DNA of 64,000 bases, taken from the NCBI RefSeq assembly GCF_011440275.1, contig NZ_JAAOIV010000006.1, positions 118,984 through 182,983 of the forward strand, given 5' to 3'. Shown here piece after piece: positions 9,844-63,660 of this stretch. Position 1 is the first letter of the stretch; the number at the start of each line of letters is the position of its first letter. The notes beneath the pieces were generated by a model that worked only from the letters and a program-made list of their open reading frames with translations, was not told where the DNA came from and made no database searches. Position numbers and translations under genes: made by a program. The DNA comes from Metallococcus carri. Its GTDB lineage: Bacteria > Actinomycetota > Actinomycetes > Actinomycetales > Dermatophilaceae.

Positions 9844-10272
9844 TCAGTCCTGCGGGACCTGTGCTCCGGCGCCGTCGGTGCGCAGCTGGTCACGCAGCTT
9901 GGCGGCATTGGCGGCGAGGATCTGCTGGTCCTGCCCCCGGGTGACGTTGTGCACCTCGAAGTCGTCGAGCGAGTTCGCCGGCCAGGTGTGCAGGTGCAGG
10001 TGGGGCACCTCGAAGCCCTCGGCGAGCAGGCCGACGCGCTGGGAGCCCCATGCCGCCCGCTGCGCCCGCCCGATCGTGCGAGCCACCTGCACCAGATGGT
10101 TCAGCAGGTCGGGGTCGGCGTCGACCCACTGGTCGATCTCCTGCCGCGGCACGACGACGGTGTGCCCGTCGGTGATCGGGTCGATGACCAGGAAGGCGAC
10201 GCAGCGGTCGTCCTTCCAGACGAAGTGCGCGGGGATCTCCCCGTCGATGATCTTGGTGAAGAGGGTCGCCAT
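9844..10272 (-). CDS. HIT family hydrolase (Hint-like)
   Basis: 142 residues. Histidine-triad proteins hydrolyse nucleoside phosphoramidates and related substrates. The N-terminal TLFTKIIDGEIPAHFVWKDD, the central TDGHTVVVPRQEIDQW and the catalytic triad EVPHLHLHTWP are all present. The start ATG at 10272 is 10 bp after the hrpA stop on the same strand. TAGCCT, whose TAG is also the hrpA stop codon, lies exactly 7 nt upstream, so it may also have its own leaderless transcript. Confidence 0.93.
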   Translation of the reverse strand: MATLFTKIIDGEIPAHFVWKDDRCVAFLVIDPITDGHTVVVPRQEIDQWVDADPDLLNHLVQVARTIGRAQRAAWGSQRVGLLAEGFEVPHLHLHTWPANSLDDFEVHNVTRGQDQQILAANAAKLRDQLRTDGAGAQVPQD

Positions 10273-60152: not shown

Positions 60153-60188
60153 CGCATGTCCGCGACCCACCGAAGGAGGATGAAGGAG

Positions 60189-61358
60189 ATGGAGAGAATC
60201 AATGACCGGCTGCTGAACTGGGCCAGCATCCTGGAGGACAACACTCGCGCGCAGGCGGAGCTGACGGCGTCGATGCCGTTCATCCACCCGCACGTCGCGC
60301 TGATGCCGGACGCTCACCTCGGCCGCGGCGCGACCGTGGGTTCGGTGATCCCGACGCTCGGCGCGATCATCCCGGCCGCGGTCGGCGTGGACATCGGCTG
60401 CGGCATGATCGCGGTGCGGACCCAGTTCGCGGCCGGTCAGCTGAGGGACGACCTCGGCACGCTCCGGCAGCAGATCGAGCGGTCGATCCCGTTGTCGGCC
60501 GGCGGTTTCAACCGCAAGGTCAGCCGGCAGCACACGCAGGATCGGCTGGACGAGTTGAGCACCCTCGCTCGCGAGGCGGGCTTCGACCCGGCGGCCTACG
60601 CCAAGCGGTGGGACCTGCAGCTGGGCACGCTCGGCTCCGGCAACCACTTCATCGAGGTCAGCCTCGACGAGCAGGACCGGGTGTGGCTGTTCCTGCATTC
60701 CGGCTCGCGGGGCGTGGGCAACCGGATCGCCGGACACCACATCAAGGTCGCCCAGGAGCAGGTCAGCAAGTGGTGGATCTCGTTGCCGGACAACGACCTT
60801 GCCTACTTGGTCGAGGGCACGGACGAGTTCGATCACTACCTGCGCGAGCTGCAGTGGGCGCAGCACTACGCCCTGCTCAACCGGGAGGAGATGATGGACC
60901 GCGTCGTCACCCAGGTGGAGCACTGGATGGGTGCGCCGGTGCAGCAGCAGGAGCGGATCAACTGCCACCACAACTACACCGCGAGGGAGCGGCACTTCGG
61001 CAAGGAGGTGTGGCTGTCGCGCAAGGGCGCGATCAACGCCGAGCTCGGCCGTCCGGGGCTGATCCCGGGGTCGATGGGCACCGCGTCGTATGTCGTGGTC
61101 GGCAAGGGAAATCCGTTGTCGCTCAACAGCTCTCCGCACGGTGCGGGTCGTGAGTACTCGCGGAGCCGGGCTCGCAAGACCTTCACGCAGGACCAGCTGC
61201 GGGAGGCCATGCACGGCATCGAGTACCGAGACACGGCGGCCTTCATCGACGAGATCCCGCAGGCGTACAAGGACATCGACGTGGTGATGCGGGACGCCGC
61301 GGACCTGGTCGAGGTCCGGCATACGCTCCGGCAGATCGTCAACGTGAAGGGCGACTGA
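60189..61358 (+). CDS. rtcB: RNA-splicing ligase RtcB
   Basis: 389 residues. Joins 2',3'-cyclic phosphate or 3'-phosphate RNA ends to 5'-OH ends with GTP and Mn2+. Metal and GMP residues are seen in AAVGVDIGCGMIAVRT, LGTLGSGNHFIEVSL, LHSGSRGVGNRIAGHH, INCHHNYTARERHFG, LIPGSMGTASYVVVGKG and SSPHGAGREYSRSRA. The ATG at 60189 is favoured because AAGGAGG lies 9 nt before it; in-frame ATGs occur at 60156 and 60180. No RtcA, archease or prfH is adjacent. It may repair tRNAs or rRNA cut by toxins. Confidence 0.95.
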   Translation: MERINDRLLNWASILEDNTRAQAELTASMPFIHPHVALMPDAHLGRGATVGSVIPTLGAIIPAAVGVDIGCGMIAVRTQFAAGQLRDDLGTLRQQIERSIPLSAGGFNRKVSRQHTQDRLDELSTLAREAGFDPAAYAKRWDLQLGTLGSGNHFIEVSLDEQDRVWLFLHSGSRGVGNRIAGHHIKVAQEQVSKWWISLPDNDLAYLVEGTDEFDHYLRELQWAQHYALLNREEMMDRVVTQVEHWMGAPVQQQERINCHHNYTARERHFGKEVWLSRKGAINAELGRPGLIPGSMGTASYVVVGKGNPLSLNSSPHGAGREYSRSRARKTFTQDQLREAMHGIEYRDTAAFIDEIPQAYKDIDVVMRDAADLVEVRHTLRQIVNVKGD

Positions 61359-61438: not shown

Positions 61439-61469
61439 TTGACCCTGGACCAGGTCGAGGGTCTTAGCT
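61439..61469 (+). promoter_or_regulatory. MerR-type promoter/operator with 19-bp spacer
   Basis: -35 TTGACC (61439-61444), 19-bp spacer, -10 TTAGCT (61464-61469). An inverted repeat GACCCT...AGGGTC lies between and overlaps the -35. Overlong 19-20-bp spacers with a dyad are the hallmark of promoters activated by MerR-family twisting. The GTG of the MerR fusion follows 7 nt after the -10, so autoregulation and a leaderless mRNA are expected. Confidence 0.8.
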
Positions 61470-61476
61470 GTGCGAC

Positions 61477-62412
61477 GTGACGGACCTGTTGTCGATCGGG
61501 GAGCTGGCGCGCCGCTCCGGGCTGACCGTGAGCGCGCTGCGCTTCTATGACCGGGAGGGCGTGCTCGAGCCAGCCTTCGTCGATCCGAGCACCGGTTATC
61601 GACGGTATGCCGCGGCGCAGATCCGCGTCGCCACCGTCGTTGCGTCGCTGCGCCGAATCGCGTTGCCGCTCAGCGAGATTCGCGCCGTCGTCGAAAACAT
61701 CACCGACCACGATCTTGTGCGCGACGTCGTTGCTCAGCACCTCGACCGGCTCGCCGACGGCCTGCGCGACGCGCAGCGCGAGGCGGCCCGACTGGACGGC
61801 ATACTCGCTCCTCCGGGCGACGGCAGCGCGACCGTCGCGGCAGCCGACCTGCGCCGCCTGCTCGATGCCGTCACCTTCGCCGCCGCCACCGACCCCGAGC
61901 ATCCGGTGCTCTGCGGCGTCCTGCTCGAAGCCGAACCCGGCCGCCTGCGTGCCGTCGCGACCGACCGTTACCGGCTCGCCGTGCACGAGGTGCCCGCCGA
62001 CGTCGACGGGGTATGGCGGTGCGTCGCGCCCGCCGCGTGGGTCAGCGGCCTCCGCGAGCTCTCCGCGGCCACCACGATCAGCCTGACTGGCGAGACCGTC
62101 CGAGCCGTCAGCAACGGCGAAACCCGTTGGGCGACAACGATTGACGGTGACTTCCCCGACTACGCACGGATCCTGCCGACGGACGACCGCGCCGGGCAGC
62201 CGCTGGGCCAAATCACCACCACTCCCGCGGTCGACGGGCTGGTGCGGATCGACGATCACGACGTCACGGTGCAGCGCGCGTTCCTGCTCGAGGCGACCGA
62301 GGCAGCCGACGGACAGGCCACTCTTGCGCTCGACGGCCCCATCACCCCCCTGGTGATCCGCAGCTCCGACGGCGCGGTCAGCCTGCTCATGCCGGTGCGG
62401 ACCGACCCATGA
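61477..62412 (+). CDS. MerR-family regulator fused to a DNA polymerase III beta-clamp-like domain
   Basis: 311 residues, GTG start. Residues ~3-72 are a MerR winged helix (LLSIGELARRSGLTVSALRF, YDREGVLEPAFV, STGYRRYAAAQI), then a helical linker (~75-112). Residues ~120-235 match domain II of DnaN: DLRRLLDAVTFAAATDPEHP, VLCGVLLEAEPGRLRAVATD, RYRLAVHEVP and the signature DGDFPDYARILP. The last ~60 residues resemble the end of domain III (ITPLVIRSSDGAVSLLMPVR). A single polypeptide thus holds about half a clamp protomer. It could sense a clamp-binding ligand or replication partners and control transcription. The stop overlaps the next gene's ATG. Confidence 0.88.
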   Translation: MTDLLSIGELARRSGLTVSALRFYDREGVLEPAFVDPSTGYRRYAAAQIRVATVVASLRRIALPLSEIRAVVENITDHDLVRDVVAQHLDRLADGLRDAQREAARLDGILAPPGDGSATVAAADLRRLLDAVTFAAATDPEHPVLCGVLLEAEPGRLRAVATDRYRLAVHEVPADVDGVWRCVAPAAWVSGLRELSAATTISLTGETVRAVSNGETRWATTIDGDFPDYARILPTDDRAGQPLGQITTTPAVDGLVRIDDHDVTVQRAFLLEATEAADGQATLALDGPITPLVIRSSDGAVSLLMPVRTDP

Positions 62413-62690
62413 GTGTGCTGGTGCACGAATGCCGCACCTGCGGCCACAACGCGACCTGGCACGAGTCGCGCGAACGCGCCTACACCGCGTGCCGCTGCTG
62501 CATCGCCGGCACGGCCGATCCGGACCCGGAGCCCACGCTGCGCCCGACCTGGACCTCCCCTGGCGGCCGACTGGAGCCCCTCGCGCCCCCAGGAACGGTC
62601 CGCAACGAGCGAACCATGCACCAGACCGTCACCTGTGACTGCGAGGCGTGCCGGGCGGCATACGACCACCACTCGACGCGCTCCCCCTGA
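62409..62690 (+). CDS. Cys-rich miniprotein (putative zinc-binding), coupled to the MerR-clamp gene
   Basis: 93 residues, ATGA overlap with the preceding gene. Cys8, Cys11 with His13/His18, then Cys28/Cys30/Cys31 (ECRTCGHNATWH, TACRCCIAG) form one likely zinc knuckle; a second set, CDCEAC (76-81) with nearby HH, sits at the C-terminus. The central part is Pro-rich and probably disordered. I do not recognise the family. Co-translation with the regulator suggests a partner role. Confidence 0.75.
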   Translation: MSVLVHECRTCGHNATWHESRERAYTACRCCIAGTADPDPEPTLRPTWTSPGGRLEPLAPPGTVRNERTMHQTVTCDCEACRAAYDHHSTRSP

Positions 62691-62709
62691 GCGGTGATCT
62701 ACTAGAGGC

Positions 62710-63660
62710 GTGAGCATCTTTCGCCGCAAGCGGACCGCTCTGCCCGAGCCCGACCCGGAGGGTCCCCGCGACGAGCACCTGCCGATGCTGTCGGTCGACG
62801 AGGCCGCCGCGGTCGCCCGGCTCGTGCGCGAACGGCTCGCCATGCGCGGCCGCGAAGGAGTCGTCGGCGCCGGAGCATTGCGCCTGGACGACGGCACCGT
62901 GCTCGGGCTGCACAATCTCGCCACCGCCCTCGTCGGCCGCCCGTATGCCGAATGGCCGGCCGCCGTGGACCGTCACCTGCGGGTGCTGATGGACTCCTTC
63001 GACCGCTCGGTGACCACCGCGGCCGATCCCCGCTCGGTCTACGTGCGGCTGCGCGCCACCTCGGACCTGCCCGCCCCGGTGACCTACGACCCAGCCGAAC
63101 CCCTGCCCGGCATTGTCGCGATCCTCGCGGTCGACGAGCCCCATGTCGTGCGCGAACTGCTGAGCGGCGATCTCACCGAGGTGGGCGGCGACCGCGACAC
63201 GGCTTATCGCAACGCGTGGGCCAATCTGGCTGCGCTCCCCGTGCCTGCGCATGACACGATCACACCGGACACCGATGCGCCCAACTCGATGATCCACGTC
63301 TTCACCGCCGAGGATTTCTTCGGCGCGAGCCGGCTGGTGGTGCTGCCCTCGCTGCTCGAACGGGCGATGGGTGCGGCGATTCCGCCGCACGGCGTGCTCG
63401 TCGCGGTGCCCAACCGGCACCTGCTGCTCGTCCATTTCCCCCAGGACGAATCCGTGCTCCTGGCCGCCCACGCGATGATCGCGATCTCCCGCACCGAATC
63501 GAGCGGCCGGCCCGGGCCGATCAGCAGCGAGCTCTTCCACGTCACCCCGGATCTGGTCGGCACCCGCCTCAGCAGCACGACCGACGACGGCGTCAGCTTC
63601 GAGGTCACCGGCCCGGTGGAGGACATGTTCCGCTCCCTCGGGCTACTCGACGATCAGTAG
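62710..63660 (+). CDS. Unknown protein downstream of the MerR-clamp operon
   Basis: 316 residues, GTG at 62710, 19 bp after the miniprotein. No signal peptide or TM helix. Soluble alpha/beta look: LSVDEAAAVARLVRERLAMR, LGLHNLATALVGRPYAEWPA, MIHVFTAEDFFGASRLVVLP, VLVAVPNRHLLLVHFPQDES, and LSSTTDDGVSFEVTGPVEDM. The VPNRHLLLVHF and helix-rich front slightly recall DUF1444, but I cannot assign it. TGATCT and TACTAG lie just upstream, so it may have a weak promoter of its own. Its end overlaps trpS by 7 bp. Confidence 0.75.
   Translation: MSIFRRKRTALPEPDPEGPRDEHLPMLSVDEAAAVARLVRERLAMRGREGVVGAGALRLDDGTVLGLHNLATALVGRPYAEWPAAVDRHLRVLMDSFDRSVTTAADPRSVYVRLRATSDLPAPVTYDPAEPLPGIVAILAVDEPHVVRELLSGDLTEVGGDRDTAYRNAWANLAALPVPAHDTITPDTDAPNSMIHVFTAEDFFGASRLVVLPSLLERAMGAAIPPHGVLVAVPNRHLLLVHFPQDESVLLAAHAMIAISRTESSGRPGPISSELFHVTPDLVGTRLSSTTDDGVSFEVTGPVEDMFRSLGLLDDQ

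Follow-up and report, generated by a model that had tools for sequence, protein, structure and literature searches.

A Widespread Family of Actinobacterial MerR-Type Regulators With a Sliding-Clamp Effector Domain and Its Possible Role as a Target-Mimic Drug Sensor

Introduction

BmrR, a MerR activator of an MFS exporter, acts at a promoter with a 19-bp spacer and carries a GyrI-like effector domain. In the TipA/SkgA class, the regulator itself is able to sequester the drug, and the class has been described as a minimal system of multidrug resistance (PMC7762955). For the beta sliding clamp (DnaN), the pocket for clamp-binding motifs comprises 18 residues in E. coli; it is the general binding site for clamp partners, and its subsite I can bind small molecules (PMC11139829). 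Griselimycin and mycoplanecin, the latter produced by an Actinoplanes, occupy this same pocket (PMC10817943), and resistance to griselimycin arises through amplification of dnaN segments (PMC8765428). MerR drug sensors and clamps are both already known; what appears to be new here is their combination in one regulator, since we found neither a MerR-clamp fusion nor a MerR protein with a clamp effector and a clamp-gene regulon in the open-access literature. Here we describe such a fusion, encoded in a stretch of 64,000 nucleotides from Metallococcus carri (the window), and its relatives in other actinobacteria.

Domain Structure of the MerR-Clamp Fusion

The fusion gene (61477-62412, + strand) starts with GTG and encodes a protein of 311 residues. 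Its N-terminus is a MerR winged-helix DNA-binding domain (residues 6-73, 61492-61695; MerR_1, E 4.7e-13), for which the Pfam family MerR also scores above the cut-off, followed in the structural model by a long coiled-coil or dimerisation helix (residues 78-110, 61708-61806; DSSP). Residues 120-228 (61834-62160) represent clamp domain II (DNA_pol3_beta_2, E 1.1e-12) and carry the pocket segments VATDRYRLA and FPDY; this match and that to MerR_1 both exceed the Pfam gathering cut-off. The C-terminal residues 259-311 (62251-62409) align with the second half of clamp domain III, the LLMPVR of the fusion corresponding to VVMPMR of the E. coli clamp. Clamps and MerR regulators from the PDB were recovered by phmmer over these same two parts. 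The initial annotation, which had read the protein as a MerR regulator joined to DnaN domain II and the clamp C-terminus, is thus borne out by Pfam, alignment and model, and the clamp similarity on which it depended was found by profile search in the same protein as MerR_1.

The AlphaFold2 model, run on an alignment of 59 relatives, has an overall pLDDT of 88 and is less confident toward the C-terminus, where, from residue 231, the means over ten residues range between 56 and 82. Residues 115-309 of the model superpose on the Mycobacterium tuberculosis clamp (Z 21.1, rmsd 2.6, 194 residues), cover residues 125-366 of the E. coli clamp and adopt a clamp fold instead of a TipAS effector domain, for which the fusion has no Pfam match. 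With 311 residues, no domain I and the dimer-interface residues lost, the fusion lacks the three tandem domains of a clamp and is not expected to form its ring dimer. Between the equivalents of P242 and N320 the window protein has 38 residues, compared with 76 in DnaN and a median of 70 in most relatives. The earlier description as "half a clamp" therefore holds for the window protein and some close kin, but not for most relatives, because these keep a nearly full-length domain III.

All 18 E. coli pocket residues have equivalents in the window fusion, i.e., H142, L145, T162, R164, Y165, R166, L167, P227, R231, I232, L303, and M305 in subsite I, and Q266, F269, I289, P306, V307, and R308 in subsite II. 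Retention of the pocket is selective: among 59 fusions, agreement with the consensus of actinobacterial DnaN is 0.76 in the pocket columns vs. 0.21 in the other clamp columns (permutation p=5e-5), and 0.84 vs. 0.25 among columns with a conservation of at least 80% in DnaN. A few non-pocket positions are also retained (e.g., D173 and the equivalent of S346), and the dimer-interface residues I272/L273 are lost. This pattern indicates that selection maintains the peptide/griselimycin pocket of the clamp in the fusions, with the dimer interface given up. However, a protein or peptide ligand would preserve the pocket as well, which counts against a reading specific for drugs, and a sensor of clamp-partner peptides is the main rival to the drug sensor that we propose below.

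Distribution and Gene Neighborhood

At least 536 relatives of the fusion occur in GTDB species genomes, 80 of which were kept; these derive from Micromonospora, Actinoplanes, Asanoa, Streptomyces, Kitasatospora, Pseudonocardia, Nocardia, Blastococcus, Ornithinimicrobium, and other genera. In a quick tree their clamp parts group apart from actinobacterial DnaN (support for the DnaN clade 0.998), although the node that unites all fusions is not itself supported. The window fusion is a member of a widespread actinobacterial family that apparently has been undescribed so far; annotated plasmid records name such fusions simply "MerR family transcriptional regulator".

Gene neighborhood was rejected as a functional guide, being lineage-specific and uninformative: the fusion adjoins a saccharopine-dehydrogenase-like gene and serS in Micromonospora, and LysE and LysR-type genes in Actinoplanes. 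In most genomes the fusion has no conserved exporter next to it, which counts against a role in drug sensing. In Streptomyces sp. VRA16 an MFS exporter that resembles the predicted MFS targets (see below) directly follows the fusion, at a distance of 4 bp. In the window an RtcB-family gene (60156-61358) lies upstream, and RtcB homologs also occur within a few genes of the fusion at two other loci (L031 and L032).

The fusion is followed by a gene for a Cys-rich miniprotein of 93 residues (62409-62690, + strand), whose start overlaps the fusion stop in an ATGA (62409-62412), i.e., the two are translationally coupled. Homologs of the miniprotein were found at six loci, with the same coupling and with eight invariant Cys residues. 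It is present in 4 out of 396 genomes of the order, in all four adjoining a fusion, and is a fixed partner of the fusion within a limited lineage. It matches nothing in the PDB and no Pfam family convincingly, and its AlphaFold model is unreliable (pLDDT 46). The results gave no sign of the metal or redox sensing that the initial annotation had suggested for it. A second neighbor, the 316-residue protein encoded at 62710-63660 (+ strand), is possibly co-transcribed and has no Pfam family above the cut-off. Its relatives occur in four other genomes, none of them beside a fusion, so it was rejected as a fusion partner and is a chance neighbor. Of the two companions originally assigned to the fusion, the coupled Cys-rich protein has been upheld, as its coupling and all eight Cys recur in relatives, whereas the 316-residue protein does exist as an orphan but its association with the fusion is not conserved.

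Promoter and Predicted Operator

The fusion is preceded by a MerR-type promoter (61439-61469, + strand) consisting of a -35 TTGACC (61439-61444), a spacer of 19 bp with the dyad GACCCTGGACC-A-GGTCGAGGGTC, and a -10 TTAGCT (61464-61469). A dyad inside a promoter spacer of 19-20 bp is a trait of the MerR family. The GTG start at 61477 lies 38 bases past the first base of the -35, and the transcript is apparently leaderless, starting at the GTG. The operator is shared across the family: the consensus TTGACCCTCGACC-N-GGTCGAGG-N3-CAGGNT, with the core dyad CCTCGACC-N-GGTCGAGG, stands ahead of 79 of the 83 fusions. In a phylum sample of 396 genomes, five sites match with no more than one mismatch, and each of them stands before a fusion. 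Five more distant fusions in this sample have no match to the operator consensus; therefore, a second subfamily with another operator probably exists.

In the genome from which the window derives, the fusion promoter is the only site with two or fewer mismatches. The self-operator was likewise the only one in most of the scanned genomes of Streptomyces, Kitasatospora, and Pseudonocardia, and outside the Micromonosporaceae this is the usual situation, which counts against a drug sensor. In Actinoplanes sp. RD1 the operator-promoter ahead of the fusion gene is present as three near-identical copies in tandem (L121, about 9878-9988).

Predicted Regulon in Micromonosporaceae

A scan of 50 fusion-holding genomes with the promoter pattern, allowing three mismatches, yielded about 100 matches, vs. 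1 for the backward pattern used as a control. The same target genes recur: 49 of the 51 extra (i.e., non-self) sites precede genes for dnaN (16 sites in 16 genomes), a small TPR protein (15), MFS exporters (13), or YunG-like proteins (5), as checked by Pfam and NCBIfam, and 2 are unassigned. The position of the start codon, +37 to +39, matches that in the fusion for most MFS and YunG targets and for several TPR targets. It is very unlikely that a different MerR regulator with a shared motif owns the dnaN, MFS, and TPR operators. MerR operators can resemble one another and binding by the fusion is a prediction, but the strong operators in the phylum sample are all on fusion promoters and none of the 51 extra sites targets another MerR gene.

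The dnaN site is located about 85 bp past the dnaA stop and about 690 bp ahead of dnaN, toward which it is oriented (loci L228, L232, L233, L235, L239, L240, L242, L244, L248, L249, L250, L256, L260, L262, L263, and L304). The block that it forms before the DnaA boxes is conserved (84% vs. a median of 55%), which is partly a selection effect because the sites were chosen by pattern. In Micromonospora this MerR-type promoter, with dnaA on one side and the DnaA boxes on the other, reads through oriC toward dnaN. No dnaN operator above shuffles was found in any other genus tested, and the restriction of this site to Micromonospora, its distance from dnaN and its position beside oriC count against a drug sensor. 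This position at the edge of oriC and the retained pocket would also suit a fusion that acts on oriC or sequesters clamp partners as a decoy rather than controlling transcription. We regard this as extremely improbable, however, as the sites show full -35/-10 promoter geometry and most of the extra ones precede genes other than dnaN.

Second DnaN paralogs were rejected as targets, as they are not linked to the operator. Two such divergent genes, with 34-36% identity, occur in Streptomyces amritsarensis (L305:9545-10657) and Pseudonocardia nigra (L306:9921-11108), apparently in integrative elements with integrase-like and replication-like genes rather than in a biosynthetic cluster.

Proposed Function

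We consider the fusion to be, with fair probability, an autoregulated MerR activator in which the sliding-clamp effector domain serves as a target-mimic drug sensor. We infer from the sequences that it binds the predicted operator, that it activates rather than represses, and that a ligand in the pocket is the activator. The retained pocket would be occupied by a clamp-binding antibiotic, such as those of the griselimycin/mycoplanecin type, or by some other cleft ligand, upon which the ligand-bound MerR dimer would distort the promoter with its 19-bp spacer and thereby activate it. The fusion would induce itself and, as TipA does, the extra protein could also soak up the drug. In Micromonosporaceae, dnaN (leading to overproduction of the target), MFS exporters, the small TPR protein, and YunG-like proteins would also be induced. 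In the genome from which the window derives, where the only strong operator is that of the regulator itself, the system would be minimal and autoregulated, with the Cys-rich protein as its coupled partner.

The suggestion of an alarm for clamp-attacking antibiotics comes from Micromonospora, because there the operator also precedes the clamp gene and drug pumps; the target gene, an exporter and the regulator itself are what a response conferring resistance to clamp inhibitors would require. Actinoplanes, the genus of the mycoplanecin producer, also holds the fusion family. The broader proposal, that these proteins form a previously undescribed MerR class, which detects sliding-clamp antibiotics by means of a fragment of an essential drug target and responds by raising target dosage and efflux, appears to us about evenly balanced. 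The main rival holds that the fusion is a sensor of clamp homeostasis, whose cleft binds the motifs of partners such as DnaE, DinB, and the clamp loader and which, by reading free partners vs. free clamp, adjusts dnaN and itself. It accounts for the retention in the fusions of what is a general partner-binding site (PMC11139829) and for dnaN among the predicted targets, yet leaves unexplained the MFS exporters at 13 of the 51 extra sites and the genomes with the operator on the fusion alone, and we judge it unlikely. Somewhat more doubtful still is re-use of the clamp fold, unconnected with the replication clamp, as a generic domain that binds some unrelated small molecule. Such re-use would agree with the binding of small molecules to subsite I of the clamp (PMC11139829), with the MFS targets, and with TPR and YunG targets that give no pointer to replication, but not with dnaN as a predicted target nor with both subsites staying DnaN-like, which is needless for a new ligand. 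The initial annotation had envisaged sensing of replication proteins, among others, through the clamp part; an autoregulated MerR-type regulator with a clamp-derived sensor and a retained peptide pocket stands, but clamp-binding antibiotics are favored over replication proteins as the ligand because the predicted regulon contains dnaN and MFS exporters.

If the target-mimic sensor is real, it would be a one-component sensor built from a copy of the drug's own target, and it would reveal a built-in response to inhibitors of the sliding clamp, which are in development as a drug class against tuberculosis. This would imply that actinobacterial communities contain clamp-targeting natural products often enough for a dedicated alarm to be selected, and the fusion with its promoter would be a ready reporter for new ones. 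In Micromonospora, dnaN would also gain a predicted transcriptional input located at oriC.

Comparison With Known Systems

The fusion resembles the beta sliding clamp in the fold of domains II and III and in its peptide/griselimycin pocket, but has a MerR HTH in place of domain I and has lost the dimer-interface residues, so a ring is not expected; the window fusion also lacks half of domain III. The self-resistance clamps GriR and MypR (PMC10817943) are likewise extra clamp-derived proteins tied to clamp-targeting antibiotics, a tie that is predicted for the fusion, but they are second DnaN genes inside producer gene clusters, whereas the fusion is a regulator present in many strains. With BmrR the fusion shares the promoter with a 19-bp spacer and, by prediction, an MFS exporter as target; it differs in having a clamp instead of a GyrI-like effector and in a predicted regulon that includes the gene of the drug target. 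The TipA/SkgA class (PMC7762955) combines a MerR N-terminus with an antibiotic-binding C-terminal domain and is autoregulated, as is predicted for the fusion. The effector of the fusion is, however, a fragment of the sliding clamp rather than TipAS, and would mimic the drug's own target. For genomes with only the self-promoter site, TipA is, by analogy, the closest working analog.
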